DNA of 64,000 nt from Hasllibacter sp. MH4015 (GTDB lineage: Bacteria; Pseudomonadota; Alphaproteobacteria; Rhodobacterales; Rhodobacteraceae), in the NCBI RefSeq assembly GCF_020177575.1, contig NZ_JAHTBK010000001.1:1116001-1180000 (forward strand), read 5' to 3'. The notes beneath the pieces were generated by a model that was not told the origin of the DNA, ran no database searches, and saw only the letters and a program-made list of their open reading frames with translations. A program made the translations under genes and the position numbers. Positions 47,441-63,487 of this stretch are shown here, one piece after another; positions within the stretch are counted from its first letter, which is position 1, and each line of letters opens with the position of its first letter.

Positions 47441-48553
47441 TTAGGCCTGTTGCCATCCCTCCAGCAGATGCAGGCGCGGTGCCGCGCCTTCGGGCCAGGC
47501 ATGGAAAACAGCCGGGTCGCCAGGTGCAAGATCGGGCGCGATCCCCATCAGGGCGCGCGGCGTGGTGGTCGCCATGCGGATCACGGCATCGCGGGGCAGG
47601 GCGGTCGCCGCCTCCATCACCGCCACCGCGCGCGCCAGCGTCAGGTCCGCGCCCGCCAGCGTTCCATCCTCCAATGTCAGCCGCCCGTCTTGCCGCGTGA
47701 TCCTGCGCCCGCCCAGTGCGAACACCGCGTGATCCGTTCCCGCCACGGCCATGGCATCACTGACCAGATAGGCCGCCGCCCCGTGCCGCGCGGCAAGGCG
47801 CAGCATGTCGGGATGCACATGAACCCCGTCGGCGATCAATCCGAAGCTGCCACGCTCCAACGCCGCAAGGGCCAGACCCGGCGCGCGGTGGTCGAGCCCG
47901 GACATGGCGTTGAACAGATGTGTCGCAGCCACGGCACCTGCATCGAATGCCGTCCGCGCCGTGGCGCTGTCACACCCGGAATGGCCGAGCGCCACGATGA
48001 TACCCTCCGCGCAGAGGGCGGCGATCCGCTCCGGCGGCACAAGCTCCGGCGCTATCGTCAGTTTCAGCCGCCCGACCTGCCCCTTCACGCGGGCGTAGAG
48101 CGCCAGGTCATCGTCGGTGAGCGGGCGCAGCATCGCCGGGTCATGGGCACCGGGCCGCGTCAGATGCGGCCCTTCCAGATGCAGGCCCCGGATCTGCCAC
48201 AGACCCGCGCGGCGGGCCTCCTCGATCAGATCGGCGATCCGCGCGATCTCCGCCGCCGTGTCGGAAATCAGCGTGGGCAGGATATGGGGCACGCCATCGT
48301 GCAAATGCGCCTCGGCCATCGCCCGCAAATCCGCCACGTCGCGGCACGCCCCCAGCATCAGGCCGCCGCCGCCATTGACCTGCACGTCGAACATCGGCGG
48401 TGACACGATCTGCCCGCCAAGGTCTTCGCGCGTATCACCCGTGCCGTCGCCCGCCGCGACGATGTCCGCGATGCACCCCCCTTCCACGACCAGGTCGCGC
48501 CAGTGCATGTCCTGCGCCCCGATCAGGGCGGCATTGGCGAAGACATGCCTCAT
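47441..48553 (-). CDS. nagA: N-acetylglucosamine-6-phosphate deacetylase
   Basis: 370 residues from the ATG at 48553, which overlaps the kinase stop (ATGA); the longer frame to 48949 is antisense-like. Amidohydrolase that makes glucosamine-6-phosphate and acetate. Motifs: MFDVQVNGGGGLML at about 58, LHLEGPHLTRPGAHDPAML, GHSGCD, ATHLFNAMSGLDHR and the final LVSDAMAVAG (catalytic Asp). Last gene of the GntR-led operon. Confidence 0.9.
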   Translation of the reverse strand: MRHVFANAALIGAQDMHWRDLVVEGGCIADIVAAGDGTGDTREDLGGQIVSPPMFDVQVNGGGGLMLGACRDVADLRAMAEAHLHDGVPHILPTLISDTAAEIARIADLIEEARRAGLWQIRGLHLEGPHLTRPGAHDPAMLRPLTDDDLALYARVKGQVGRLKLTIAPELVPPERIAALCAEGIIVALGHSGCDSATARTAFDAGAVAATHLFNAMSGLDHRAPGLALAALERGSFGLIADGVHVHPDMLRLAARHGAAAYLVSDAMAVAGTDHAVFALGGRRITRQDGRLTLEDGTLAGADLTLARAVAVMEAATALPRDAVIRMATTTPRALMGIAPDLAPGDPAVFHAWPEGAAPRLHLLEGWQQA

Positions 48554-49395
48554 GGCAGGGCCCGCGCCATGGCAAGCGCCCCGTCGAGCGCGGAGCCCTT
48601 GGGCGCTTGCAGCCCCGCTGCCTCTGTGTCGCGCAACCGCCCCGCCAGCGCTTTCCCAAGCCCGCCGGTCAGGACCCAGGGCGCGCCCTCGGGATGGCCG
48701 ATGTCGCGCAGGCCGCGTCGCAATTCCGCCTCCACCGATCCTTGCAGGTCGTCCGCCCACGCGCCGGGATGTGCCAGCACTATGGGGGCGAGCGCAGCGA
48801 AGTCCTCGGGCCCCGCGTCGCGCGCGAACAGGACGGGATGCGCGCCGATCTCCGCTAGCAGGGCCGCGCGCAGGGGATCGTCGCGGAAATGGTCCAACCG
48901 CCCATCCTCGATCCGGCAAAGTTGCGACAGGGCCAGATGCCCCAGCCACGCGGCGGAGCCTTCGTCCCCCAAATCGAAGCCCCAGCCGCCCTGATGGGTC
49001 ACGCCCCGCCCGTCGCGGCGGATGAGGAACGACCCGGTGCCAAGGTTCACAAGCGTCCCCTCCGCCCCCGCAAAGGCACCTTCCAACGCCGTGACGCTGT
49101 CATCGACCACGTAGGCCAGAACCGACAGGCGCATGGCGAAGGCATCGGCCACGCCGGGCAGGCGGCACCCGGCCAGCCCCGCCACGATACGCGCGCCGGT
49201 AAGATCCTCCAGGCTCAGGTCCAATGGCCCAAGCGCATCGGCAAGCGCCAGGCGGATCGCGGCCTCCGCCGCTGCGGGGTCGGTGACGACGTTGGCGGGC
49301 CCGCCTTCGGCCCGCGCCTCCCGCCCGCCCGCCACGGCGACAACCCGGCACCCCGTGCCGCCGCCGTCGATCCCGATATGCAAGGTCGTGTCCAT
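48550..49395 (-). CDS. N-acetylglucosamine/glucosamine kinase (BadF/BadG ATPase family)
   Basis: 281 residues. Start LHIGIDGGGTGCRVVAVAGG is the phosphate-1 motif of the ASKHA fold; LVNLGTGSFLIRRDGRGVTHQGGWGFDLGDEGSAAWLG gives phosphate-2 and the adenosine loop. The family includes GlcNAc and glucosamine kinases; coupling with nagA by an ATGA overlap supports GlcNAc as substrate. It lies 23 bp after the Gfo/Idh/MocA gene. Confidence 0.88.
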   Translation of the reverse strand: MDTTLHIGIDGGGTGCRVVAVAGGREARAEGGPANVVTDPAAAEAAIRLALADALGPLDLSLEDLTGARIVAGLAGCRLPGVADAFAMRLSVLAYVVDDSVTALEGAFAGAEGTLVNLGTGSFLIRRDGRGVTHQGGWGFDLGDEGSAAWLGHLALSQLCRIEDGRLDHFRDDPLRAALLAEIGAHPVLFARDAGPEDFAALAPIVLAHPGAWADDLQGSVEAELRRGLRDIGHPEGAPWVLTGGLGKALAGRLRDTEAAGLQAPKGSALDGALAMARALP

Positions 49396-49418
49396 CGCGG
49401 GGCAGCTTAGGGCAGGGA

Positions 49419-50507
49419 TCAGATCAGCGAAACCACCCGGCCGGTCAGGGCCGCCTCCTGCGCCGCCATGCCCATGCGCACTGCCGCCGCCCCGTCGGCC
49501 AGCGTCACCTGCGGCTGGTGGCCATGGCGCACGACTTTCAGGAATTGTACGTGCTGGTAATAGGTGGAGCCGTGGTGATCGCCTGCCGTCAGCAAATCCT
49601 TGTCGACCGGGGTGTCATGCACGACCTGCCCCGTGGTCGGCGCGCGGGGGCTGACGATCACCTTGGGCATCGGGGCCGGGCCCAGATCGGGGTTCCAGAA
49701 CCGGGTGGGGCCAGGCACCTTCGCCTCGATCTTGCCGGAGGGACCGACGGCGCTGATCTCCTCCTGGTACTCGCTGCCCTCGGCGAACATGCACAGGTCC
49801 AGAAGCGCGCGCGCGCCGCGGGCGAAATCGACGATGACATAGCCATGGTCCCAGATGTCAGGCACGCGCCCGCCATAGACCTCATCAAGATGGTTCACGG
49901 CCTGACCGGCACTGGCCATCACGCGCACCGGCTCATCGCGCAGGATCAGGCGCATCAGGTCGAAGAAGTGGCAGCATTTCTCGACGAAGGTACCACCGCT
50001 ATTTTCGTTAAAGCGGTTCCAGTCGCCGACCTTTTCGAGAAACGGAAAGCGGTGTTCGCGGATTGACAGCATCTTGATCCCGCCGGTGGCGGCATCCACC
50101 AGCTCCCGGAACTTGGCCACGGGCGGCATGTAGCGGTATTCCATCGCTACCCAGACCGGGGCGGCGTAGCTGTCCGCGAAGGCCGCCACATCGCCCGCAT
50201 CCTCCGGCGCGGTGAAAAGCGGCTTCTCGCACAGGATCGGCAGGGTGCGCAGGCCCGCGATCTGCTTGAGCGTCGCGACATGGGTGTGGTTGGGCGACGC
50301 GATCACCAGCGCGTCGACATCGTTGCGCGTCACCAGGCTTTCGAGATCGGGGGCGCGGGTCGCCCGGGGCTCCGTCGCCTGCGCGCGCGCGGCCATCGTG
50401 TCATCGGGCTCGAAGAACCCCGTGACCTGCGTGTCGGCCAGAAGCGCGATGTTGCGCATATGCTCCTGCCCCATCATGCCCGCACCCACGATGCCGTATC
50501 GCGTCAT
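49419..50507 (-). CDS. Gfo/Idh/MocA-family NAD(P)-dependent protein
   Basis: 362 residues. Rossmann start YGIVGAGMMGQEHMRNIALL, the EKP motif at 94-96 (CEKPLF), and the second-domain GGTFVEKCCHFFDLMRL with His180 and Asp183 in the usual HxxD positions. Members are sugar dehydrogenases, but the same fold also includes NAD-dependent glycosidases (families GH109 and GH188, the latter acting on sulfoquinovosides). Which applies here is open; the operon partners make the glycosidase reading worth testing. Confidence 0.88.
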   Translation of the reverse strand: MTRYGIVGAGMMGQEHMRNIALLADTQVTGFFEPDDTMAARAQATEPRATRAPDLESLVTRNDVDALVIASPNHTHVATLKQIAGLRTLPILCEKPLFTAPEDAGDVAAFADSYAAPVWVAMEYRYMPPVAKFRELVDAATGGIKMLSIREHRFPFLEKVGDWNRFNENSGGTFVEKCCHFFDLMRLILRDEPVRVMASAGQAVNHLDEVYGGRVPDIWDHGYVIVDFARGARALLDLCMFAEGSEYQEEISAVGPSGKIEAKVPGPTRFWNPDLGPAPMPKVIVSPRAPTTGQVVHDTPVDKDLLTAGDHHGSTYYQHVQFLKVVRHGHQPQVTLADGAAAVRMGMAAQEAALTGRVVSLI

Positions 50508-50525
50508 AGTCTTTCGTCCTTCACG

Positions 50526-51260
50526 TCAGGGCACCCGCGCGAAATACCGCGCGCGGGTGGGATCGAACCAGGTTCGGGAAAACTCGCAAGGGGCGCCGTA
50601 TTGGTCGAAGGCGCGGCGCTCCACGTAGCCCATCATGTGCCCGGGCGCGAGGCCGAGGTCCTCGGGCGCCCAATCCGGCAAGGCGGCGGCGCTGATGCGA
50701 TCCTCCACGTTGCGGATCTTCAGGAACAGCCGCTCCTCATAGGTGCGGTAGAGCGATTCGGAGATTGTTCTAGGCGTCAGGCCATTGTCGTCATGCCAGC
50801 GCCCGTCGAGCCAGATCTCCTCCAACGCCACAGGCTCCGCGCTCAACGACCGCAGCCGGCGCATCCGGATACCGAAGGGCAGGGTCGTCCCGATATCGGG
50901 GATGTCGGCGGGCTTGGTCATCTTGGCCATGTCCAGAAGCCGCGCCGTGGGCAGGCCTCCGCCGCCCGGGTTCCGTTCCAGCCGGAACAGCGCGTAGGTG
51001 CCGACGTTGGATTTGCCCCCCAGCACGTAATTGCCCGACCCCTGCCGCCGGTCGATCAGCCCCCGGTCGGCCAGCACCTGAAGCGCCTTGCGCAGGGTCG
51101 CGACGGCCACGCCGAAATCGGCGGCCATCTGGCGTTCCGGGGGCAGCTTGTCCCCCTCACCCAGACGCCCGCCGCCGATGTCGATCGTCAGCTCTTCGGC
51201 GATGCGAAGATAGGTCGGAAGCGCGCCCTGTTCGGACGCGTCGCGCGTGTCACCCGGCAT
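50526..51260 (-). CDS. GntR/HutC-family regulator with UTRA domain
   Basis: 244 residues from the ATG at 51260, supported by AAGGGAGG; a longer frame to 51314 would cross the operator. Winged helix at about 15-75 (PTYLRIAEELTIDIGGG, then LPPERQMAADFGVAVATLRKAL), then a UTRA effector domain ending EFSRTWFDPTRARYFARV. HutC-type regulators such as NagR sense sugar phosphates. It heads the kinase/nagA operon and diverges from the monooxygenase pair, so it probably represses both. Confidence 0.9.
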   Translation of the reverse strand: MPGDTRDASEQGALPTYLRIAEELTIDIGGGRLGEGDKLPPERQMAADFGVAVATLRKALQVLADRGLIDRRQGSGNYVLGGKSNVGTYALFRLERNPGGGGLPTARLLDMAKMTKPADIPDIGTTLPFGIRMRRLRSLSAEPVALEEIWLDGRWHDDNGLTPRTISESLYRTYEERLFLKIRNVEDRISAAALPDWAPEDLGLAPGHMMGYVERRAFDQYGAPCEFSRTWFDPTRARYFARVP

Positions 51261-51286
51261 CGCGTCCTCCCTTCGCTTGGCCGAAA

Positions 51287-51307
51287 TTGATATACCATTG
51301 ATATACC
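51287..51307. promoter_or_regulatory. Duplicated 10-mer TTGATATACC, likely GntR operator
   Basis: TTGATATACC at 51287-51296 and again at 51298-51307, one base apart (one helical turn). It lies 26 bases upstream of the GntR start and 49 bases before the monooxygenase start. It stands out as AT-rich in GC-rich surroundings. Confidence 0.65.
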
Positions 51308-51356
51308 TATTCATCGTTGCTACGCCTGAGCAGGCGAAAGATCAAGGGAGGCGGCG

Positions 51357-52511
51357 ATGAGTGTGGTTCCGGTCACATCTGGGGATCTGACGGGCGCGGA
51401 AGTCAGCTGGTTCGCGGCCCTTTGTTCGGACGATTACGAATTTCTCGGCGTGCCGGACGGGCGGCTGCGGTCGTCGTGGGACCATTGCTCGGGCCTCGTG
51501 AAAGAGGCGGAGGCACAGGGCTTTCGCAACATCCTGTGCCCGTCGTCGTACCAGGTGGGGCAGGACACGCTGTCCTTCGTGGCTGGTTGCGCGCCGATTA
51601 CCAGCAAAATTAACCTCTTGGCCGCCGTCCGGTGCGGGGAAATGCAGCCGATCATGCTGGCGCGCACCATCGCCACGCTCGATCACATGCTGGAGGGGCG
51701 GCTGACGGTGAACATCATCTCCTCGGATTTTCCGGGGGAGAAGGCGGAGAGCGGGTTCCGGTATCAACGCTCCCGCGAGGTGGTGGAAATCCTCAAGCAG
51801 GCCTGGACCCAAGACGAGATCAATTACCACGGCGAAGTCTATGATTTCGAAGGATTAACCACCGACCCCGCCAAACCGTATCAGACCGGTGGGCCGCTTT
51901 TGTATTTCGGCGGCTACTCGCCCCCCGCGCTGGAGCTTTGCGGGCAGCATTGCGATGTCTACCTGATGTGGCCGGAGCCGAAGGAGGCTTTGGCACAGAG
52001 GATGAAGGACGTCCACCAAGTCGCCGAAAAATATGGAAGAACGCTCGATTACGGCCTGCGCGTTCACATGATTGTCCGCGATACGGAGGCGGAGGCGCGG
52101 GAATATGCGGAACACCTGACCTCAAAGTTGGACGACGAATACGGCCAGTTGATCCGCGAACGCGCATTGGACAGCACGTCCTTGGGTGTTTCGCATCAGG
52201 CGAAAGCCCGCGAATTGGCGGACAAATACGGCTATGTGGAGCCGCATCTGTGGACCGGGATCGGGCGGGCGCGCTCGGGCTGTGGGGCGGCGCTTGTGGG
52301 CTCCGCCGACCAGATCCTGACCCAGATCGAGGATTACAAGAAGATGGGCATTCGCGCCTTCATCTTCTCGGGCTATCCGCATATGGATGAATGCAAGCAT
52401 TTCGGCCGACTGGTCATGCCGGAGCTGGAAACCTGTTCATTGCCAGAGGTTTACGGGCGCGTCCCGGCCTCCGTGCCAGAAACGCCACTGGGCGTGGGAG
52501 AGAGACGATGA
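51357..52511 (+). CDS. SsuD-like flavin-dependent monooxygenase (LLM class)
   Basis: 384 residues, same length as alkanesulfonate monooxygenase SsuD and alignable over its length (PLLYFGGYSPPALEL, DVYLMWPEP, GLRVHMIVRDT, HLWTGIGRARSGCGAALVG, FSGYPHMDECKHFGRL). The SsuD sulfonate-site residues have counterparts: Arg235 and His237, Arg306, Tyr340 and His342. The SsuD Cys54 position is not a Cys. It should use reduced FMN and O2, most likely to cleave a C-S bond, releasing sulfite and an aldehyde. No flavin reductase is nearby. Overlaps the reductase gene (ATGA). Confidence 0.85.
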   Translation: MSVVPVTSGDLTGAEVSWFAALCSDDYEFLGVPDGRLRSSWDHCSGLVKEAEAQGFRNILCPSSYQVGQDTLSFVAGCAPITSKINLLAAVRCGEMQPIMLARTIATLDHMLEGRLTVNIISSDFPGEKAESGFRYQRSREVVEILKQAWTQDEINYHGEVYDFEGLTTDPAKPYQTGGPLLYFGGYSPPALELCGQHCDVYLMWPEPKEALAQRMKDVHQVAEKYGRTLDYGLRVHMIVRDTEAEAREYAEHLTSKLDDEYGQLIRERALDSTSLGVSHQAKARELADKYGYVEPHLWTGIGRARSGCGAALVGSADQILTQIEDYKKMGIRAFIFSGYPHMDECKHFGRLVMPELETCSLPEVYGRVPASVPETPLGVGERR

Positions 52512-53401
52512 TGGATCGCGTTGATGTCGGCGGGGTGGAGATGTCCCGCATCGTCTATGGCATGTGGCGGCTTGGCGACGACGACGATACCTCACCCGCC
52601 CATGTGCAGGCGAAGGTGGAAGCGTGCGTGGAACAGGGCATCACCACCATGGACCAGGCCGATATCTACGGCGGCTACATCGCCGAGGCGCTGTTGGGGG
52701 AGGCGTTCAAGGCGTCCCCCGGCCTGCGCGACAAGGTCGAGGTGGTGACGAAATGCGATATCGTGGCGCCCATCGGCAAGCATTCCGACAAGCGGGTGAA
52801 GTATTACGACACCAGCGCGGAATATATCTCAGCGTCGGTCGATAACTCCTTGAAAGATATGGCGATTGATGTCATCGACCTGTTGCTGATCCATCGTCCC
52901 GACCCGCTGATGGATCACGTGGAAACCGGGGCCTGCCTCGACCGGCTTGTCGCCTCCGGCAAGGTCCGCGCGGTGGGCGTGTCGAACTTCCGCCCCTGGG
53001 ATTGGGAGCTTCTGCAATCCGGGATGGAGACGCAGCTGGCCACCAACCAGATCGAGATGTCCGTCCTGCACCATGCTCCGTTCACCAATGGCGATGTGGC
53101 GTTTCACCAGCGTGGGGGGCAGCCGCTGATGGCGTGGTCGCCTTTGGCCGGGGGAACGCTTTTCGGGGATGACGGCGCGGATGTGCGCGCGGTGTTGGAG
53201 CGGATCGGTGCGGATCATGACGTTGGTGCGGATGCCGTTGCGGTCGCGTGGCTGCTCCATCACCCGGCCCGTATCCTGCCGGTGATGGGGACCAATAACC
53301 TCAACCGGATCAAAGGCTTGTCAGACGCAGTTAAAGTGACCCTGGATAAGCAGGATTGGTACGAGATCTACACCGCCGCGCTTGGCAAAGAGGTTGCCTA
53401 G
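52508..53401 (+). CDS. Aldo/keto reductase, YdhF-like
   Basis: 297 residues from the ATG at 52508, overlapping the monooxygenase stop. The catalytic tetrad is complete: Asp49, Tyr54 (DQADIYGG), Lys82 and His129 (LLLIHRPDPLMDH). Close in pattern to E. coli YdhF, which has a similar DIYGGY motif. With the monooxygenase it would reduce the aldehyde made by C-S cleavage, the division of labour known for SmoC and SmoB in the sulfo-SMO pathway of sulfoquinovose breakdown. That role is inference. Confidence 0.88.
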   Translation: MMDRVDVGGVEMSRIVYGMWRLGDDDDTSPAHVQAKVEACVEQGITTMDQADIYGGYIAEALLGEAFKASPGLRDKVEVVTKCDIVAPIGKHSDKRVKYYDTSAEYISASVDNSLKDMAIDVIDLLLIHRPDPLMDHVETGACLDRLVASGKVRAVGVSNFRPWDWELLQSGMETQLATNQIEMSVLHHAPFTNGDVAFHQRGGQPLMAWSPLAGGTLFGDDGADVRAVLERIGADHDVGADAVAVAWLLHHPARILPVMGTNNLNRIKGLSDAVKVTLDKQDWYEIYTAALGKEVA

Positions 53402-54345
53402 AGGTGAGACAAATGCGTCGCGCATCCCGTGAGCGCGGCGTAATCGTCACTGACGACTGAGACCCCGAACTGCTCCATGAAATCGGAGAACCGACCCTTG
53501 GACCGGAACGCCTGCGCAAAGCCACAGGCGTCCAGATGCGGCGTGAAGGCGCGGGTGACGCCGCCGACAAGATAAATGCCGCCGAACGGCAGATGCGAGA
53601 GCGCCAGATTGCCAGCGACGTCGCCCAGGATTTTCACGAACAAGGTGCCGGTCACCACCGCGTCCGCATCGCCCCGGCCCATGGCGGCAAGGACATCGGA
53701 GGCCTCCATCACTGACCCGTGGAGCGCCTTGTGCAGATGGCAGACCCCGCGCCCCGAAAGGACCTCCTCCACTGACGGATAGCCACCGCTATCCTCCAGC
53801 TGGGACAGGATCGGATGCAGCTCCGCGATGGAGGCGGGGAGGCTGACATGTCCGGCCTCCGACGGGGGTACGAACCGCCCGGCACTGGTGTCGAAGACGG
53901 GGCAGGCGTTGAATCCGGTGCCGAGGCCGATGACCAGTTTGGCCGCGTTTTCGTTTGCGTAGGGCTGCGGCAGGATCACCTGAAGGTCGTCATCGGCGAT
54001 GTGCCCGATTGCGTGACCCTGCGCCTGCAAGTCGTTGAGAACGGCCACTTTCTCCGCCGTCAGAACCTCCGCCAGCACCGCCTTGTCGATCCGCCAGTCA
54101 AGGTTCGTGAGCGTGCCGACACCATCGTGGACCGGCCCGGCCATCGCCACGCAAACGCCGGTGATCGCATCGGCGGAGACGCCGGTCTTGTCGAGGTAGC
54201 GTTGGATCACATCGCCGATCCCGCCATGTTCGGCGTTGCGGAAGCGATCCACGCTGTCCTTGCGCACATCCGCCCCGTCGGCCAGCGCAACGCGGGTGTT
54301 GGTGCCACCGATATCGGCCACCAGGGACAGGGTTTGCGCAGTCAT
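53398..54345 (-). CDS. glk: Glucokinase
   Basis: 315 residues. Start SLVADIGGTNTRVAL (phosphate-1 motif, Asp11), then NDLQAQGHAIG, VIGLGTGFNACPVFD and a GIYLVGGVTRAFTPHL segment, typical of proteobacterial Glk. Phosphorylates glucose freed by the neighbouring glucosidases. It converges on the reductase gene with a shared CTAG and lies 26 bp downstream of the beta-glucosidase gene. Confidence 0.93.
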   Translation of the reverse strand: MTAQTLSLVADIGGTNTRVALADGADVRKDSVDRFRNAEHGGIGDVIQRYLDKTGVSADAITGVCVAMAGPVHDGVGTLTNLDWRIDKAVLAEVLTAEKVAVLNDLQAQGHAIGHIADDDLQVILPQPYANENAAKLVIGLGTGFNACPVFDTSAGRFVPPSEAGHVSLPASIAELHPILSQLEDSGGYPSVEEVLSGRGVCHLHKALHGSVMEASDVLAAMGRGDADAVVTGTLFVKILGDVAGNLALSHLPFGGIYLVGGVTRAFTPHLDACGFAQAFRSKGRFSDFMEQFGVSVVSDDYAALTGCATHLSHL

Positions 54346-54371: not shown

Positions 54372-55676
54372 TCAGCCGCGCCACCATTTCGCCAGCGCGT
54401 GATAGGATGCTTTGGGCGTCCGTGCCAAGGTGTCAAAGTCCACATGGATGAGGCCGAAGCGTTTGTCATAGCCAAGCGCCCATTCGTAATTGTCCATGAG
54501 CGACCAGACGAAATAGCCGTGCACGGGCGCGCCATCGGCCAATGCCTGCTGCACCGCACGCAAGTGCCGGTCGAGGAAGTCGATGCGATCAGGATCCGGC
54601 GTGGTGGCCGATGCCATGCCGTTTTCGGTGACATAGATCGGAAGGTCGCCGGTATATTCGCGCGCCGTGCGGGTCAGGAAATCGCGCAGGCCGTCGGGAT
54701 GGATCTCCCATTCCATATCGGTCAGGGGGCCTTGGGTCGGTGCCTCCGCGTAATTGGGCCAGGGGCCGTCGACATGGGCGATGCGCTTGCGGGTGTAGTA
54801 ATTCACGCCGACCCAATCGAGGGGGGATTGAATCGTGGTAAAATCGTCCTGCCAGCCCTGGGGGAGGTGAGGCTCCAACCCGTCCAGCACCTCGGCGGGA
54901 TATTCGCCGCGGAACAGCCCGCCAAGGAAGAAGCGGTTGTAGATCGCGTCGTATCGCTCGCTTGCCGCCACATCCTCGGGCGCGTCGCTTGCAGCGGTGG
55001 CCCATTCGAAATTGCACACCGCACCGAGGTTCTGGACGCCGAGGCCCTTACAGACCTGAATGGCACGCCCATGGCTGAGCAGGACATGGTGCATGGCGCG
55101 GGCGGTGGCGCGGATGTCGCGCAGGCCGGGGGCATGGTGGCCGTCGAAATGGGACAGCCAGCCGACGCACCACGGCTCGTTGATTGGGGCGGCGGACCAA
55201 GTGCGGTCGCCGATGCGGGCCATGATCGTCTCGGTGTAATCCGCGAACCAGTTGGGCATGTCCGCGTTGCGCCAGCCGCCCCGGTCGGCCAGGGCCTGCG
55301 GCAATTCCCAATGGTAGAGCGTCACGGCGGGGGCGATGCCGCGCGCCAGCAGGCCGTCGACCAGCCTGTCATAGAAATCCAGGCCCTCGGGGTTTGCCGC
55401 CCCGGTCCCGTCGGGCATCACCCGCGCCCACGAGGTGCTGAAACGATAGACATCCGCGCCGAGGTCACGGATCAGGTCCAGATCCTCGTCCAGCCGATTG
55501 TAATGGTCGCAGGCCCGCGCGCCGTTTTCGGCCCGCGCCACGTTGCCCGGCGTCGCGGCGAAACTGTCCCAATGGGTCAGGCCCGCGCCGCCCTGTCCGT
55601 GGCCTTCGATCTGGTAGGCGGAGGTTGCGACGCCAAAGCGGAAGCCGTCGGGAAAATCGGCGCGTGTGAAGTTCAT
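54372..55676 (-). CDS. GH1 beta-glucosidase
   Basis: 434 residues. Start FPDGFRFGVATSAYQIEG, acid/base Glu167 in PINEPW and nucleophile Glu351 in YVTENGMAS, both in the usual GH1 positions. No signal peptide, so it works on imported beta-glucosides. Upstream of glk, with which it forms a leftward unit headed by the LacI gene (36-bp gap). Confidence 0.94.
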   Translation of the reverse strand: MNFTRADFPDGFRFGVATSAYQIEGHGQGGAGLTHWDSFAATPGNVARAENGARACDHYNRLDEDLDLIRDLGADVYRFSTSWARVMPDGTGAANPEGLDFYDRLVDGLLARGIAPAVTLYHWELPQALADRGGWRNADMPNWFADYTETIMARIGDRTWSAAPINEPWCVGWLSHFDGHHAPGLRDIRATARAMHHVLLSHGRAIQVCKGLGVQNLGAVCNFEWATAASDAPEDVAASERYDAIYNRFFLGGLFRGEYPAEVLDGLEPHLPQGWQDDFTTIQSPLDWVGVNYYTRKRIAHVDGPWPNYAEAPTQGPLTDMEWEIHPDGLRDFLTRTAREYTGDLPIYVTENGMASATTPDPDRIDFLDRHLRAVQQALADGAPVHGYFVWSLMDNYEWALGYDKRFGLIHVDFDTLARTPKASYHALAKWWRG

Positions 55677-55712
55677 GTCGATGTCCTTGAAAGGCCGGGG
55701 ATGGCCGTTGGA

Positions 55713-56762
55713 TCAGGTGGGGGCAGGGCCGGTGGACCGGCCAAGCGTCAGCTCTGTCTCCCACAATTCCTGTTTCGGGGGCTGGGTCGGGTTGTCGATC
55801 AGGTCGAGCAGGATCTCCGCGCACCGTTTGCCGGCCGCCCGGATGGAGGACCGCGTGGCGGTGAAGGCGGGACCTTCGGGGGCGGTGATCCCCTCGTTGC
55901 CCAGGTAGCTGAGCACGTCGTCGTGGCAGATGATGGAGATGTCGCGCCCGGTGCGCAAGCCACGCTCGCCGGCCGCGCGGCGCACGCCGATGGCGGGAAT
56001 GATGGAGGAGACGAGGAACGCGGTGGGCGCGTCGCCGCTGTCCAACATCTCGGACGCGGCGCGGTAGCCGTATTGTTCCGTCATGATCTCGGCCCGCATC
56101 CAGGCGGGGTTGGCCGTGAGCCCGCGGGCGGCCAGACCTTCCTCGAACCCGCGGCGGCGGCGGCGGGCGAAGTCCAGGCTCTCCTGTCCGTTGAGAAGCG
56201 CGATCTTGCGATGACCGAGGTCCAGCAGAAGGTCGGTGGCCCGCCGGAACCCGCGGACATTGGCCACGTCGAGCCAACTGTAGGAATCGGCACTGGCGGT
56301 GCGGCCATGGACAAGGAACGGCAGCCCCAGTTCGTGCAAGAGCGGCACGCGCGGGTCCTCGAACATCGGGGCCTGCACCATGACGCCGTCGACCGACGCA
56401 TTGGCCGCCATCTGGCGATAGGCGGCTTCGGTGGATTGTGCGGGAACCATGGATAGAAGCAGGTCATAGCCTTCGCGGGCATAGACCTCTCCGGCGCCGG
56501 CGATGAAGTCGGCGAAGATCGGGTTCACGATCTCTTCCTTGCCGGTGAGCGGCATCACGTGGCCGATCGCCATGGCGCGGCCCGTGGCGAGCCTCCGGGC
56601 GCGGGCATTGGGGATGTAATTGGCCGCCTCCGCCGCCGCGAGCACGCGCTGCCGCGTCTCCTCGCGCACCTCGGGGTAGCCGTTCAGCGCGCGGCTGACG
56701 GTGGTTTGGCTCAGGCCGAGGGATTGCGATAATTCCTTCAGGTTCATCGGGCCGATACGCAT
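55713..56762 (-). CDS. aglR: LacI-family regulator of the glucoside genes (AglR-like)
   Basis: 349 residues. HTH at the start (LKELSQSLGLSQTTVSRALNGYPEV), hinge near residue 60, then a periplasmic-binding-type sensor domain. The ATG at 56762 or the next at 56747 could be used; neither has a strong site. A near copy of the CAAAGCGCTTTG operator lies just before the start, so it likely represses itself and the divergent agl operon. The inducer is probably an alpha-glucoside. Confidence 0.9.
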   Translation of the reverse strand: MRIGPMNLKELSQSLGLSQTTVSRALNGYPEVREETRQRVLAAAEAANYIPNARARRLATGRAMAIGHVMPLTGKEEIVNPIFADFIAGAGEVYAREGYDLLLSMVPAQSTEAAYRQMAANASVDGVMVQAPMFEDPRVPLLHELGLPFLVHGRTASADSYSWLDVANVRGFRRATDLLLDLGHRKIALLNGQESLDFARRRRRGFEEGLAARGLTANPAWMRAEIMTEQYGYRAASEMLDSGDAPTAFLVSSIIPAIGVRRAAGERGLRTGRDISIICHDDVLSYLGNEGITAPEGPAFTATRSSIRAAGKRCAEILLDLIDNPTQPPKQELWETELTLGRSTGPAPT

Positions 56763-57007: not shown

Positions 57008-58357
57008 ATGAAGAAGATGTATCTCGCGAGTGCCGCGGCACTGGCGCTTTCCGCAAGCGGTGCGTTGGCTGACGGGCACGTCAACCACGTCTTTCCCGTT
57101 GGCGAAGGCGATTTCAACTGGGACAGCTACAACGCTTATGCCGACGCGTTCGACCTGAGCGGGCAGGAGCTGACGATCACCGGTCCGTGGACCGGCGCGG
57201 ACGCCGAATTGGTCAATTCCGTGATCGACTATTTCGAATCCGCGACCGGCGCGACGGTGCAGTATTCCGGCTCCGACAATTTCGAGCAGGACATCGTGAT
57301 CGCGACGCAGGCGGGCTCCGCCCCCAACATCGCCGTGTTCCCGCAGCCCGGCCTGGTCACTGACCTCGCCTCCCGTGGTGCCCTGACGCCGCTGAGCGCG
57401 GAGACGGCGGACTGGATCCGCGAAAACTACGCCGCCGGTGAATCCTGGGTGTCGCTTGGCACCGCGGCAGGCGCCGACGGGGAAGAGGCGCTTTACGGCT
57501 TCTTCTACAAGGTCGACGTGAAATCGCTGGTCTGGTACTCGCCCGAAGCCTTCGACGAGGCGGGCTATGACGTTCCCACCACGATGGAAGAGCTGATCGC
57601 GCTGAGCGACCAGATCGTGGAAGACGGTGAGACGCCGTGGTGCATCGGTCTGGGATCGGGCGGCGCGACCGGCTGGCCCGCGACCGACTGGGTCGAGGAT
57701 ATCATGCTGCGCACCCAGGCGCCCGAGGTCTATGACGGCTGGGTTTCCAACGAGATCCCCTTCGATGACGAGCGCATCGTCAACGCGATCGACGTCTTCG
57801 GCTCCTTCGCGCGCAACGAGGATTACGTGAACGGTGGCGTTGCTGCCGTCGCCTCCACCGACTTCCGCGACAGCCCCGGCGGTCTCTTCACCTTCCCGGC
57901 GGAATGCTACATGCACCGCCAGGCGTCGTTCATCCCGACCTTCTTCCCGGAAGATGCGGATGCGGACTTCTTCTACTTCCCGGCCTTTGAATCCGAAGAT
58001 CTCGGCAGCCCCGTTCTGGGTGCCGGTACGCTCTTCGGGATCACCCAGGACAGCGAAGCGGCCCAGGCGTTCATGGCGTTCCTCCAGACGGAGATCAGCC
58101 ACGAAGTGTGGATGGCGCAGTCCGGCTTCCTCACCCCGCACCAGGGCGTGAACTCGGATCTCTTCGCGTCTGACAGCCTGCGTCAGATGAACGACATCCT
58201 TCTGGGTGCCACGACCTTCCGCTTCGACGCATCCGACCTGATGCCGTCCGAGATCGGGCAGGGCATCTTCTGGTCCGGCATGGTCGATTACGTGGGCGGC
58301 GAAGACGCAGCCTCCGTCGCCGAGCGGATCCAGAGCCGTTGGGCCGAAATCCAGTAA
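57008..58357 (+). CDS. aglE: Alpha-glucoside ABC transporter, binding protein
   Basis: 449 residues with a signal peptide (MKKMYLASAAALALSASGALA). A class-I-type sugar-binding lobe pattern: VQYSGSDNFEQDIVIATQAG, PNIAVFPQPGLVTDLASRG, VKSLVWYSPEAFDEAGYDVP. First gene of an aglEFGAK operon. A long GC hairpin follows the stop, before aglF, as often seen where the binding protein is made in excess. Confidence 0.93.
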   Translation: MKKMYLASAAALALSASGALADGHVNHVFPVGEGDFNWDSYNAYADAFDLSGQELTITGPWTGADAELVNSVIDYFESATGATVQYSGSDNFEQDIVIATQAGSAPNIAVFPQPGLVTDLASRGALTPLSAETADWIRENYAAGESWVSLGTAAGADGEEALYGFFYKVDVKSLVWYSPEAFDEAGYDVPTTMEELIALSDQIVEDGETPWCIGLGSGGATGWPATDWVEDIMLRTQAPEVYDGWVSNEIPFDDERIVNAIDVFGSFARNEDYVNGGVAAVASTDFRDSPGGLFTFPAECYMHRQASFIPTFFPEDADADFFYFPAFESEDLGSPVLGAGTLFGITQDSEAAQAFMAFLQTEISHEVWMAQSGFLTPHQGVNSDLFASDSLRQMNDILLGATTFRFDASDLMPSEIGQGIFWSGMVDYVGGEDAASVAERIQSRWAEIQ

Positions 58358-58379
58358 GCGGCTGACACCATAGGATTGC

Positions 58380-58406
58380 CCCCGGCCGGTGCGCTGCCGG
58401 CCGGGG
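58380..58406 (+). other. Strong intercistronic hairpin between aglE and aglF
   Basis: Arms CCCCGGCCGG (58380-58389) and CCGGCCGGGG (58397-58406), with no T-run. It probably protects the aglE message end or lowers read-through to the permease genes. Confidence 0.7.
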
Positions 58407-58511
58407 TGCGCAGACGACAAGAGGGCCCGACAAGGGTTCATCGGTCCGCAAAAGGACCGCGCTGTGGCCGAGCGTATCGACCACTCAAATGACCGGGGGA
58501 GGGCGCGCGCC

Positions 58512-59495
58512 ATGTCGCCAATCATTCAAGGCATCATCACGATCATTGTCGGCGTCGGCGGGTGTGTGGGGTACTTCTACTTCGCCAACCTGTTCCTCGA
58601 CAAAGTGCTGTTTCCCGCACGCGGCGAGAATGCCGGGCGCAACATCAACCGCGCCAACCAGATCCGGCCGTGGCTGTTCCTGTTCCCTGCCATGTTCGCC
58701 CTGGGTCTCTACCTCATGTATCCGGTCGTGGGATCGTTCATCCGGTCGATGTATGACCGCGCGGGCGACGAATTCGTGGGCGCGGGCAACTACGTGCGCC
58801 TCTTCAATAACCCCGATTTCCGGCAGGCTTTCTTCAACAACATCCTGTGGGCGCTTGTCGTGCCCGCGACGACGACCTTCATGGGCCTTCTGATCGCGCA
58901 GCTGACCGACCGCCTGAAATGGGGTGCGTTCGCCAAGTCGCTGATCTTCATGCCGATGGCGATTTCCTTCGTGGGCGCGTCGCTGATCTGGAAATTCGTC
59001 TACGCCCAGGACCCCGACATCGGCATCATCAACGCGATCCGCGTGAATGTCTTCGGCGCGGAGGAGGGGATCGACCCGCTTCAGACGGCGTTCTGGAACA
59101 ACTTCCTGCTGATGGCGATTCTGATCTGGATCCAGACCGGTTTCGCCATGGTGATCCTGAGCGCCGCACTGCGCGGCATCCCGGAGGAAACCATCGAGGC
59201 CGCGATCATCGACGGGGCGAACCCGTTCCAGGTCTTCTTCAAGATCAAGGTGCCGCAGATCATGGGCACCATCGTCGTGGTCTGGACCACGATCACCATC
59301 CTCGTCCTGAAGGTCTTCGACATCGTCTATACGATGACGGGGGGCAATTTCGGAACCGAGATCCTGCCGTCGTTCATGATGGACTTCATGTTCCGCGATG
59401 ACGGGCAAGCCACCGCCGTGGCCTTCGTGATCATGCTGGTCGTTCTGCCGGTGATGATCTGGAACATTGCGCAAGCGCGCAAAGAAATGCGCTGA
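58512..59495 (+). CDS. aglF: Alpha-glucoside ABC transporter permease
   Basis: 327 residues from the ATG at 58512, preceded by GGGGGAGGG. About seven membrane helices, with an extra amino-terminal helix and about 50 residues before PWLFLFPAMFALGLYL. The EAA loop is EETIEAAIIDGANPFQVFFKIKVPQI. MalF-like half of the sugar channel. Confidence 0.93.
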   Translation: MSPIIQGIITIIVGVGGCVGYFYFANLFLDKVLFPARGENAGRNINRANQIRPWLFLFPAMFALGLYLMYPVVGSFIRSMYDRAGDEFVGAGNYVRLFNNPDFRQAFFNNILWALVVPATTTFMGLLIAQLTDRLKWGAFAKSLIFMPMAISFVGASLIWKFVYAQDPDIGIINAIRVNVFGAEEGIDPLQTAFWNNFLLMAILIWIQTGFAMVILSAALRGIPEETIEAAIIDGANPFQVFFKIKVPQIMGTIVVVWTTITILVLKVFDIVYTMTGGNFGTEILPSFMMDFMFRDDGQATAVAFVIMLVVLPVMIWNIAQARKEMR

Positions 59496-59507
59496 GGGGA
59501 CGGGATC

Positions 59508-60656
59508 ATGGACAATATCGCAGGTAGCAAATCGAGTCTTTCCTGGGCCACGAACATCGCCGTGTTCATCATCGTCCTGGCCTGGCTGATCCCGACCGTG
59601 GGGCTGTTCGTCAGCTCGTTCCGGGACCGCGACCAGATCAGCGCCTCGGGCTGGTGGGTGGCGCCGTTCTCGGTCGAGCTGACCTATCGCACACGGGCCG
59701 ACGCGGTCCCCACGGAGGACGGAAACCTTTTCGTCATCGAGGGCAACCTCTTTGAATCCGAGGAGGTGCGCGAAAGCTTCGAGGGCGGTGAAAGCACCAT
59801 TGCGGGCTTCGGCCTGCGCGGGCGGGAGCCGGGCGTGTTCGAGCCGGGTGTCGAGGTGGAGAACCGCGATGACGGAACCATCGTCGTCAACACCGACGGC
59901 ACCTATCGCTATACCTCGGCCGAGCCCATAGACAGCCCGCCAAGGGTCTATTTCGTGGCCGAGACGCCACCGGATTTCACGTTGGACAATTACCGAAACG
60001 TGTTGACGGCGGACAACATGGACCGGGCCTTCATCAACACGCTGACCGTGACCATCCCGGCGACGATCATCCCGATCCTGATTGCGGCCTTCGCGGCCTA
60101 TGCGCTGGCGTGGATGGAGTTTCCGGGCAGGGGGCTTTTGATCGCGACGGTTGTGGGGTTGCTGGTGGTGCCGCTACAGCTTGCGCTGGTGCCCCTTCTG
60201 AACCTGCATAACCAGATCGGGATCGGGCAGAGTTTCGTGGGCATATGGTTGGCCCATACCGGGTTCGGCCTGCCGCTCGCCATTTATCTGCTGCGCAACT
60301 ACATGGTCGGTCTGCCGCGCGACATTATTGAGTCCGCCAAGGTCGACGGGGCCACCGATTTCCAGATCTTCACCAAGATCATCCTGCCGCTCAGCTTCCC
60401 GGCGCTGGCCTCCTTCGCGATCTTCCAGTTCCTGTGGACGTGGAATGACCTGCTGGTGGCCAAGGTGTTCCTGCCCTCGGCGGGGGACGCGCAGGTGATG
60501 ACGGTCAAGATCGCCGACGACCTTCTGGGCTCTCGCGGTGGCGATTGGGGTATCCTCGCGACGGCTGCCTTCATCTCCATCGCGGTGCCCTTGTTGGTCT
60601 TCTTCTCGATGCAACGGTATCTCGTGCGCGGCCTGCTGGCCGGCTCGGTCAAGTAA
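59508..60656 (+). CDS. aglG: Alpha-glucoside ABC transporter permease
   Basis: 382 residues. MalG-like half of the channel with a large periplasmic domain of about 120 residues after the first helix (SGWWVAPFSVELTYRTRADA onward). The EAA loop is RDIIESAKVDGATDFQIFTK. Starts 12 bp after aglF and is followed 14 bp later by aglA. Confidence 0.93.
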   Translation: MDNIAGSKSSLSWATNIAVFIIVLAWLIPTVGLFVSSFRDRDQISASGWWVAPFSVELTYRTRADAVPTEDGNLFVIEGNLFESEEVRESFEGGESTIAGFGLRGREPGVFEPGVEVENRDDGTIVVNTDGTYRYTSAEPIDSPPRVYFVAETPPDFTLDNYRNVLTADNMDRAFINTLTVTIPATIIPILIAAFAAYALAWMEFPGRGLLIATVVGLLVVPLQLALVPLLNLHNQIGIGQSFVGIWLAHTGFGLPLAIYLLRNYMVGLPRDIIESAKVDGATDFQIFTKIILPLSFPALASFAIFQFLWTWNDLLVAKVFLPSAGDAQVMTVKIADDLLGSRGGDWGILATAAFISIAVPLLVFFSMQRYLVRGLLAGSVK

Positions 60657-60670
60657 GGAACGATACGGCC

Positions 60671-62335
60671 ATGAACCTGATGCAGGACATGCCCCAGGGC
60701 GACATCGTGGTGTCCGACAAGGATTGGTGGCGCGGGGCGGTGATCTATCAGATCTATCCGCGCAGCTTCCAGGACAGCAACGGCGACGGGATCGGCGATC
60801 TGGCGGGGATCATTCACCGCATGGATCACATCGCCGATCTGGGCGTCGATGCGATTTGGATCAGCCCGTTCTTCCGGTCGCCCATGCTCGACTTCGGCTA
60901 TGACGTCAGTGATTATCGCGATGTCGATCCGATGTTCGGCACGCTTGGCGATTTCGACGCGCTGATCGCGCGGGCCCATTCGCTTGGGGTCAAGGTGCTG
61001 ATCGACCTGGTGCTTAGCCATACGTCGAACCAGCATCCCTGGTTCCAGGAAAGCGGATGCAGCCGGGAAAACCCCAAGGCCGATTGGTATGTCTGGGCCG
61101 ACGCGAAGCCCGATGGCAGCCCGCCGAACAATTGGCTGTCGATCTTCGGCGGCTCGGCCTGGGAATGGTCGGGCGACCGGATGCAGTATTATCTGCACAA
61201 TTTTCTGAAGGAACAGCCGGACCTGAACCTGCACAACGAACAGGTGCAGGACGAATTGCTGGCCGTGGCGAAATTCTGGCTGGATCGCGGGGTCGATGGC
61301 TTCCGTCTGGACACGATCAACTTCTACTTCCACGACAAGGAATTGCGCGACAATCCCGCGCTGGACCCCGAACAGCGCAACGCGACCATCGCGCCCGAGG
61401 TGAATCCCTATAATTGGCAAGATCACCTCTATGACAAGAACCAGCCCGAGAACCTCGATTTCCTGCGCCGCCTGCGCGCGTTGATGGACGAATACCCCGC
61501 CGCCACCGCGGTGGGCGAGGTGGGGGATGGGCAATACGGGCTCCAGATCCAGGCCGAATACACGAGCGGCAACGACAAGGTGCATATGTGCTATTCGTTC
61601 GAGTTCCTGTCGGGCCAGACGCCGTCGCCGGAACGCTTCGGGGGCGTGCTGGAGGATTACGAGCGCGAGATCGGGGACGGATGGGCCTGTTGGGCGTTTT
61701 CAAACCATGACGTCGTGCGCCATGCCAGCCGCTGGAACCTCGGCGAGGAGGCGCGCAGGCTTTACGCGGGCCTGCTGCTGTCGATGCGCGGCTCGATCTG
61801 CCTCTACCAGGGCGAAGAGCTTGGCCTGACGGAGGCTTACGTCGCCTTCGAGGATTTGCAGGACCCATACGGCATCCGGTTCTGGCCCAAGTTCAAGGGC
61901 CGCGACGGGTGCCGCACCCCGATGCCGTGGATTTCCGACAACCAGAATGGCGGGTTCACCGACAGCAAGCCGTGGCTGCCCATGGCCGTCGAGCACCTGG
62001 CGCGCGCCGTGGGCAACCAGGCCAAGGACACGGAGTCCATCTTGCATTTCTATCGCAAGATGATCGCGTTCCGCCAAAGCTACCCCGCGATGACAAAAGG
62101 GGCGCTGGAATTGCTGAGCCAATCGGACGGCATCCTGTCCTTCATCCGGACCTACGACGACCAGCAGGTCTTTTGCGCCTTCAACATGACGGGGGGGGCG
62201 TTGCCGATCGACGTGCCCGAAGGCGAATGGACACAAGACAAGGGCGCCCCCTTCACGGCGCTGGAAACCGACAAGGGCGTCACGCTGCCGCCCTTCCAAG
62301 CCTATTTCGCGGCCAAAGCCGCCGACACAGAATAA
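60671..62335 (+). CDS. aglA: GH13 alpha-glucosidase
   Basis: 554 residues from the ATG at 60671. The TIM-barrel amylase signature: YQIYPRSFQDSNGDGIGDL, nucleophile Asp214 (GFRLDT), acid/base Glu283 (AVGEVGD) and Asp347 (FSNHD). No signal peptide: it hydrolyses maltose, trehalose or sucrose-type sugars after import. Same place in the operon as aglA of other alphaproteobacteria. Confidence 0.94.
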   Translation: MNLMQDMPQGDIVVSDKDWWRGAVIYQIYPRSFQDSNGDGIGDLAGIIHRMDHIADLGVDAIWISPFFRSPMLDFGYDVSDYRDVDPMFGTLGDFDALIARAHSLGVKVLIDLVLSHTSNQHPWFQESGCSRENPKADWYVWADAKPDGSPPNNWLSIFGGSAWEWSGDRMQYYLHNFLKEQPDLNLHNEQVQDELLAVAKFWLDRGVDGFRLDTINFYFHDKELRDNPALDPEQRNATIAPEVNPYNWQDHLYDKNQPENLDFLRRLRALMDEYPAATAVGEVGDGQYGLQIQAEYTSGNDKVHMCYSFEFLSGQTPSPERFGGVLEDYEREIGDGWACWAFSNHDVVRHASRWNLGEEARRLYAGLLLSMRGSICLYQGEELGLTEAYVAFEDLQDPYGIRFWPKFKGRDGCRTPMPWISDNQNGGFTDSKPWLPMAVEHLARAVGNQAKDTESILHFYRKMIAFRQSYPAMTKGALELLSQSDGILSFIRTYDDQQVFCAFNMTGGALPIDVPEGEWTQDKGAPFTALETDKGVTLPPFQAYFAAKAADTE

Positions 62336-62353
62336 ACGGGAGGAGACGGGGAC

Positions 62354-63487
62354 ATGGCCAATCTGAAGCTGACCGACGTCGAGAAGACCTATGGCGGCAC
62401 CGTGCAGGTGCTCCGCGACATCAATCTGGACATCGAACAGGGCGAGTTGATCGTCTTCGTGGGCCCGTCGGGCTGCGGCAAGTCCACGCTTCTGCGGATG
62501 ATCGCGGGGCTGGAGCGGATCACCGGGGGGGAATTGGTGATCGACGACCAGGTGGTCAACGACATCCCGCCGTCCGAGCGCGGCATCGCCATGGTGTTCC
62601 AGTCCTACGCGCTCTACCCGCATATGACGGTGCGCGACAACATGGCCTTCGCGCTGAAGATCGCGGGCGACAGCCCGGACGAGATCAACCGCAAGGTGCA
62701 GGCGGCGGCGGAAAAGCTGCAACTGGAAAACTTCCTCGACCGTCTTCCCAAGGCGCTTTCCGGTGGTCAGCGGCAGCGGGTCGCCATCGGGCGGTCCATC
62801 GTGCGGGACCCGAAGGTGTATCTGTTCGATGAGCCGCTCTCCAACCTCGACGCCAGCTTGCGCGTCGCCACACGCATCCAGATCGCGCAGCTGAAGGAGG
62901 AAATGCCGGACAGCACGATGATCTACGTTACCCACGACCAGGTGGAGGCGATGACGCTCGCCTCCCGCATCGTGGTGCTGGCAGGCGGCGGCGTGGCGCA
63001 GGTGGGCAGCCCCCTGACGCTTTACGAGAAGCCGAACTCGACCTTCGTGGCGAAATTCATCGGCTCACCGGCCATGAATCTGATGCGCGGCAAGATCGTC
63101 GGCACCGGGGCCACTACGACGCTTGAAATGGAGCAGGGCGGGGGCACGATCACCTCCAACTATCCCTCCACCGACGCCGATATGGGCGCGGAGGTCGAAG
63201 TGGGTATTCGCCCCGAGGATATGGTAGAGGCTACGGGCTCAGACTTCGCCTATCACGGAACGGTGGAAATCACGGAAGCCTTGGGCGAGGTCACGCTGCT
63301 CTATTTCCAGCGCGCGAATGCGGAAGATGATCCCGTCATCGGCAAGCTCGCGGGTATCCACAAGAACCTGCGCGGCAATGACGTGAAGCTCACGGCGAGC
63401 GCCGACAAGGTGCACGTGTTCCGCGATGGCGTGAGCCTGCTCTACCGCGACGAGGCCGTGTTCCTGCCGGGTGTCCAGCCGCACTGA
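62354..63487 (+). CDS. aglK: Alpha-glucoside ABC transporter ATPase
   Basis: 377 residues, MalK-like. Walker [13 protein letters not shown]-loop [10 protein letters not shown], signature [20 protein letters not shown] and Walker [13 protein letters not shown], then a TOBE-type regulatory domain from about residue 235 ([10 protein letters not shown], and GIRPEDM). Drives sugar import through AglF/AglG. GGGAGGAG precedes the ATG; last gene of the operon. Confidence 0.95.

Follow-up and report, generated by a model that had tools for sequence, protein, structure and literature searches.

Plant and algal membranes contain the sulfur sugar sulfoquinovose (SQ). A Roseobacter-clade cluster for its breakdown by the sulfolytic SQ-monooxygenase pathway (sulfo-SMO), with a GH188 glycosidase, SqgA, was described by Kaur et al. 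(2023, PMC10755693) and reportedly by Liu et al. (2023). The sulfo-SMO cluster of Agrobacterium and Rhizobium, which shares SmoC and SmoB orthologues with the locus described here if the solved chains are assigned as below, carries a GH31 sulfoquinovosidase in place of GH188, another importer and another gene order. Marine Roseobacter bacteria have GH188 in nearly all of their sulfo-SMO clusters (Kaur et al. 2023, PMC10755693). The window analyzed in this work is a 64,000-nucleotide stretch of Hasllibacter sp. MH4015 (contig NZ_JAHTBK010000001.1, positions 1,116,001 to 1,180,000), in which positions 47441-53401 hold a six-gene divergon: nagA, a kinase gene, gfo and gntR run leftward and smoC and smoB run rightward. 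A sequence-only reading had placed the same six genes here, and all were found; it had also proposed a sulfonated N-acetylhexosamine as their substrate. With a probability of about 65%, we interpret the locus instead as a Roseobacter-clade type of sulfo-SMO locus with an attached N-acetylglucosamine (GlcNAc) salvage pair. We base this on whole-length matches to solved chains, conserved residues, the spread of SmoC, a divergon kept among relatives, a conserved repeat and the published association of GH188 with such clusters. The core belongs to an already known pathway, here in one more host and with its genes in a variant order, and SQ rather than a sulfo-N-acetylhexosamine is the default substrate.

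The rightward genes were assigned by comparison with solved chains, bit scores standing in for a tree in the placement of the LLM monooxygenase between SmoC and SsuD. Over nearly its whole length, the monooxygenase scored 699 bits to 7oh2 and 691 bits to 7olf, while SsuD-type chains reached at most 198 bits; its score against the curated SsuD profile TIGR03565 was 240.5 bits, under the 518.2 cut-off. An SsuD-like alkanesulfonate role was rejected on these scores. The aldo/keto reductase scored 428 bits to 7bby and 7bbz and 205 bits to YdhF, and it keeps the aldo/keto tetrad D52, Y54, K82 and H129. Monooxygenase residues R235, H237, R306 and Y340, already picked out in the sequence-only reading and presumably equivalent to the sulfonate-site residues of SsuD, are identical in 89/89 aligned orthologues, as are W205 and H342. 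On this homology the two proteins are SmoC-type and SmoB-type, in line with the chemistry proposed earlier, and the ATGA overlap reported at their junction is confirmed. SmoC and SmoB are co-located in the window, the arrangement by which a genome is called sulfo-SMO-positive in PMC13372026 (both encoded and co-located, SmoA not required).

The Gfo/Idh/MocA protein scored 493 bits to 8zn9, which bears only the name "Oxidoreductase, putative", 372 bits to 8qc3 and 363 bits to 8qc2; 8QC2, 8QC3, 8QC5, 8QC6 and 8QC8 are SqgA structures (Kaur et al. 2023, PMC10755693). By alignment, K95, Y124, R153, L157, K159, E176 and H180 correspond to ArSqgA K107, Y136, R166, L170, K172, E189 and H193, and these seven positions are identical in all 83 aligned orthologues. 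The GH188 sulfonate-site trio Arg166, Leu170 and Lys172 is thus present as R153, L157 and K159. Lys107, Tyr136, Glu189, His193 and His321 are catalytic and binding residues of GH188; the first four have identical counterparts as listed, His321 aligns to H311 (83/83) or to H312 (H in 11 rows, N in 72), and the published Glu163 aligns beside a conserved glutamate numbered 164 here. Some GH188 variants carry Tyr at position 170 (PMC11465081); the window protein has the usual Leu at this counterpart. The GH188 tyrosine (Tyr136 in ArSqgA) contacts the 2-OH of SQ (PMC10755693), and its retention together with the sulfonate residues argues against a GH109-type N-acetylgalactosamine role. Judged from sequence, this is a predicted GH188 sulfoquinovosidase that retains the sulfonate-binding residues known from the literature, and the GH188-like character first suspected from the letters was right.

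SmoC was searched for at E ≤ 1e-100 in 198 family genomes, own genome included, and 13 genus genomes, and was found in 88 and 12 of these, respectively. Neighborhoods were taken from 78 of the 87 SmoC-bearing relatives in the family, nine lying within 5.5 kb of a contig start being omitted by choice, and from 11 genomes of the genus, window included, with G202 (no SmoC) and G203 (a 3.9-kb contig) excluded; 78 family neighborhoods, 10 from the genus and the window make up a set of 89. The exact gfo-gntR/smoC-smoB arrangement was present in 65/78 family and 11/11 genus neighborhoods, and single genes were found in the 78 family neighborhoods at 72 (gfo), 76 (gntR) and 73 (smoB). The two arms therefore stay together among relatives, which the sequence-only reading had set as a test. 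In its GH188, SmoC and SmoB set and its GntR divergon, the locus resembles the Roseobacter-clade cluster. In G202 (L190:7012-8880), a natural deletion has removed smoC, gntR and gfo from between smoB and the kinase gene, both of which are kept.

An 11-mer, ATTGATATACC, stands in two tandem copies between the arms; the duplication seen earlier is real and its length was one base short, having been given as a 10-mer. In 81/89 neighborhoods the 200 bp ahead of smoC contain the pattern TTGAT-N6-TTGAT, which arose in none of 200 rounds of mononucleotide shuffling, which kept single-base content only, so its conservation exceeds chance. A conserved TGCTACGC block follows the repeat at promoter spacing. 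NanR, a repressor of the GntR type, recognizes a (GGTATA)3 operator (PMC8012715), and the reverse complement of the window repeat contains GGTATA twice. Lying over the smoC -35, the 11-bp direct repeat is probably the GntR operator, and GntR, if it binds there, would probably repress both arms through it in response to some effector.

Copies of the repeat are also dispersed. When ATTGATNYACNATTGATNYAC was scanned with at most one mismatch in 13 genomes (the own genome and the genus), 12 copies were found in the own genome, the smo site included, 16 in G200, 23 in G201, 20 in G204, 18 in G205, 9 in G207, 7 in G208, 2 each in G198, G199, G206 and G209, 1 in G203 and none in G202; the reversed control pattern gave zero in all 13. 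The 11 extra copies in the own genome (L294:1501, L305:1501, L319-L327) fall, by crude gene calls, in four tail-to-tail gaps, three same-strand intergenic sites, three predicted genes and one ambiguous site, and some dispersed copies lie at places common to two or three species. Such sites are odd for operators.

Under the sulfo-SMO interpretation, the GH188 enzyme would cleave SQ-glycerol or other SQ glycosides to free SQ, from which SmoC would remove sulfite with FMNH2 and O2 to yield 6-dehydroglucose, and SmoB would convert this to glucose, which a glucokinase, such as the one encoded convergently with smoB, would pass to central metabolism. For FMNH2 and SQ uptake the cell would probably rely on genes at other genomic sites. 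GlcNAc salvage is the most likely role of the kinase and NagA, which would convert GlcNAc to GlcNAc-6-phosphate and then to glucosamine-6-phosphate; in a few lineages this pair would have become joined to the SQ operon.

The coordinates of these genes and of their neighbors are given in Table 1. With an ATGA overlap between kinase and nagA and gaps of 18 bp (gntR-gfo) and 23 bp (gfo-kinase), the leftward genes look like a single operon. GntR can also be read from 51314; the 51260 start, which gives 244 aa, is likelier since the conserved direct repeat then stays upstream. The divergon ends at 53401, with the glucokinase-GH1-LacI block and then the agl-type ABC operon directly beyond.

Table 1. 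Features of the divergon and its flanks in window coordinates; functions are predicted.
Feature	Coordinates	Strand	Basis or remark
nagA-like, N-acetylglucosamine-6-phosphate deacetylase family	47441..48553	-	start 48553 overlaps kinase stop
BadF/BadG-type kinase; its closest solved relatives are named GlcNAc kinases	48550..49395	-	PF01869
sqgA-like Gfo/Idh/MocA gene, predicted GH188 NAD-dependent sulfoquinovosidase	49419..50507	-	solved-chain matches and residues
GntR/HutC-type regulator, GntR and UTRA domains	50526..51260	-	PF00392 and PF07702
11-bp direct repeat ATTGATATACC x2, probable GntR operator	51286..51307	.	copy 2 overlaps -35-like TTGATA
conserved TGCTACGC block, putative -10-like region of smoC promoter	51318..51325	+	position frequencies, 81 neighborhoods
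smoC, predicted FMNH2-dependent sulfoquinovose monooxygenase (LLM)	51357..52511	+	solved-chain scores
smoB, predicted aldo/keto reductase	52508..53401	+	solved-chain scores and tetrad
glucokinase (PF02685), convergent with smoB	53398..54345	-	family match
GH1 beta-glucosidase and LacI-type regulator	54372..56762	-	family matches
agl-type sugar ABC importer and alpha-amylase-family gene; common-type binding protein	57008..63487	+	

Unlike the Roseobacter-clade cluster, the window has no linked flavin reductase and no TRAP or ABC importer of the smo-linked type, and it carries the kinase-nagA tail in its leftward operon. A flavin-reductase cluster was found in at least 36/89 neighborhoods and a TRAP gene in at least 42/89, both lower bounds from a crude choice of longest open reading frames (ORFs) with Pfam checked on one representative per cluster. 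The linked importer and flavin reductase, which the sequence-only reading had suggested looking for, are thus common in relatives and absent beside the window genes. There is no TRAP gene in the smo neighborhood of the window, and a TRAP importer of the smo-linked type was rejected for the own genome, where DctP matches are only 26-27% identical.

In some other genera a sugar-ABC set lies beside smo (binding-protein cluster in 5/89 neighborhoods), and the own genome encodes an unlinked orthologue of this set, with a binding protein 76% identical, two permeases and an ATPase arranged alike and then a second Gfo/Idh/MocA gene (L280:3900-9950; G000:C1, about 2908400-2914450). The SmoC-less G202 is the only genus genome without the binding protein, and in the draft G203 identity falls to 47%. 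The repeat pattern was matched exactly 191-201 bp before the binding-protein match in G198, G199, G200, G201, G204, G205, G206 and G209 (8/11), and a score scan agreed in the five genomes read. This pattern, along with the absence of the binding protein from the SmoC-less genome alone, suggests a sulfo-SMO regulon that includes the ABC operon; by this test the link holds for most of the genus and not for the own genome. G202 additionally lacks the repeat. The adjoining agl-type ABC was also considered as a dedicated SQ importer and is unsupported, since its binding protein is of a type found in 125/198 family genomes. However, a diverged agl-type ABC set, whose binding protein is 53-54% identical to that of the window, lies a few kb downstream of smoB in L055, L057, L058 and L105; in these four genera it is possibly an SQ-adapted importer, so an importer of agl type may still serve SQ.

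The leftward tail resembles known amino-sugar enzymes at the family level. The kinase scored 56 bits to PF01869, which meets the family level, and 78.4 bits to the NagK profile NF046058, under the 370 cut-off; its best solved relative is the GlcNAc kinase 1zc6 (68 bits). NagA scored 190.9 bits to TIGR00221 (cut-off 225.65) and 154 bits to E. coli NagA, 1ymy, its best solved relative, and the motifs HLEGP, GHS, THL-NAM, R-PG and D, whose roles we presume, align with the E. coli protein. Both genes follow gfo in 2/78 family neighborhoods (L033, L044); within the genus, the kinase is present in 6/11, nagA in 3/11 and neither in 5/11, and G199, G206 and G209 have the kinase after gfo without nagA. 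A kinase contig search led to two loci. In G011, which has no SmoC at E ≤ 1e-100, the tail-type kinase-nagA pair stands alone (L142:8037-9991), among neighbors that were named by eye: an FAD-dependent-oxidoreductase-like gene, a small ORF resembling lysozyme and a large gene resembling a ferredoxin oxidoreductase. Since a single kinase match (E ≤ 1e-20) and a single nagA match were found in the own genome, its GlcNAc salvage may simply consist of this pair. The ordinary nagK/gntR/nagA/ABC operon of the genus (L203, L204, L205) has members of the same families, with kinases 35-38% and NagA 46-47% identical, and differs in the kinase clade, in having its own GntR and ABC genes and in lacking SQ genes. 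In support of dedicated SQ equipment, the tail follows gfo in three lineages, has its own kinase clade and shows fixed differences; against it stand G202, G011, the three kinase-only genomes and the absence of the tail from most SQ loci. That absence, the retention in G202, the SmoC-less pair in G011 and the single own-genome matches favor salvage.

Several observations weigh against the sulfo-SMO interpretation with a salvage tail. The solved chains 7oh2 and 7olf, which we take to be SmoC, and 7bby and 7bbz, which we take to be SmoB of sulfo-SMO, have generic PDB names. No PF01613 gene (SmoA-type flavin reductase) was found among the scanned window genes and none is linked to smo; of two PF01613 genes elsewhere in the own genome, the better is 29% identical to the smo-linked type. 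The repeat was not found before the unlinked ABC operon in the own genome, G207 or G208; within the genus these same three carry nagA in the tail, an overlap from which, at three cases, we conclude nothing. No recognized solved SmoF chain was among the matches of the unlinked ABC binding protein, and its identification as SmoF was not borne out. Finally, in a tree of 44 kinases (rows under 80% of the query, or 75% for nagA, rows with stops and identical rows dropped), the tail kinases form one clade of 10 rows with 100/100 support and a stem of 0.88, eight beside smoC, one in G202 and one in G011, while the ordinary genus NagK fall elsewhere. Both kinase and NagA show fixed differences between tail and ordinary types (7 distant nagA rows set aside), which exceeds what plain salvage needs. 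In the NagA tree the window groups with G207 and G208 (97/87), and L033, L044 and G011 make up a second group (91/84), with unsettled bootstrap.

The separate kinase clade would fit an unlikely alternative in which the tail serves the SQ route itself, the kinase phosphorylating the glucose released by SmoB or a related sugar and NagA being an added, partly dispensable gene. The kinase distantly matches 2e2n, a broad hexokinase from Sulfolobus, and the three genomes with the kinase but no nagA also agree with such a role. Glucose would already be served, however, by the glucokinase that adjoins smoB in all ten 17-kb genus loci with smoC; the best solved relative of the kinase is a GlcNAc kinase, most SQ loci have no such kinase, and G202 retains it without smoC.

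The remaining alternatives would make this an operon for mixed SQ/amino-sugar glycans, acting by SQ-GlcNAc cleavage or on a sulfonated amino sugar, with a dedicated, co-regulated kinase-NagA subfamily channeling the amino sugar. This view as a whole we consider improbable; if true, SQ in glycoproteins or other glycans, beyond sulfolipid, would be a food source. The substrate bears on it directly. In aligned orthologues, no position of SmoC or SmoB separates tail-bearing genomes from the rest, and in GH188 only positions 24, 291 and 360 do, scattered and none of them a checked active-site position, which argues against a changed sulfo-sugar. It does not speak against SQ-GlcNAc glycosides, where the sulfo-sugar is SQ itself, and the unchanged enzymes fit these as well as they fit the sulfo-SMO interpretation. 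In this quite improbable variant, GH188 would split SQ from GlcNAc as found in archaeal N-glycans, SmoC and SmoB would take SQ, and the kinase and NagA would take GlcNAc. A direct SQ-GlcNAc bond presumably occurs in Sulfolobus N-glycans, the GH188 family cleaves alpha and beta SQ glycosides, and the layout implies co-transcription of a tail whose place after gfo recurs in the genus as well as in L033 and L044. Kaur et al. also propose SQ release from SQ-containing N-glycans (PMC10755693). On the other side, the flanks of the divergon showed no enzyme or importer for such glycans, three genus genomes have the kinase but no nagA, G011 has both but no SmoC, and a glycoproteomics paper on ammonia-oxidising archaea mentions SQ, in the excerpts consulted, in a reference title only. 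The literature searched, which was mostly without subscription papers, contained none of the five names tried for a sulfonated amino sugar or an SQ-GlcNAc compound.

The substrate proposed in the sequence-only reading, a 6-sulfo N-acetylhexosamine from which SmoC would take the sulfonate and SmoB would then make GlcNAc by reduction for the kinase and NagA, draws on the position of the tail within the operon and the distinctness of both tail enzymes and is very improbable, because the tail is missing from 76/78 family neighborhoods, 5/11 genus neighborhoods have neither gene, SmoC, SmoB and GH188 are the same with or without the tail (the three scattered GH188 positions apart), GH188 retains its tyrosine contact to the 2-OH of SQ and none of the five names tried for such compounds appeared in the literature searched.

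The view that this gene set matches no described pathway is not supported, as the locus minus its tail is the Roseobacter-clade sulfo-SMO cluster with GH188 (PMC10755693). The kinase-nagA tail itself is undescribed in the literature searched: sulfoquinovose and N-acetylglucosamine-6-phosphate deacetylase co-occurred there, in the texts as excerpted, only in a microbial-mat paper, Roseicyclus was nowhere joined with sulfoquinovose, and the excerpts of the review PMC12890257 contain no "N-acetyl".

Read as a sulfo-SMO locus, the divergon has as its likely substrate a natural and abundant sugar where an unknown one had been proposed. The conserved candidate operator connects SQ use with an unlinked ABC operon in most members of one genus and would allow SQ regulons to be mapped where transport genes do not lie beside smoC, while the recurrent addition of kinase and nagA makes the use of SQ-amino-sugar glycans as food directly testable.

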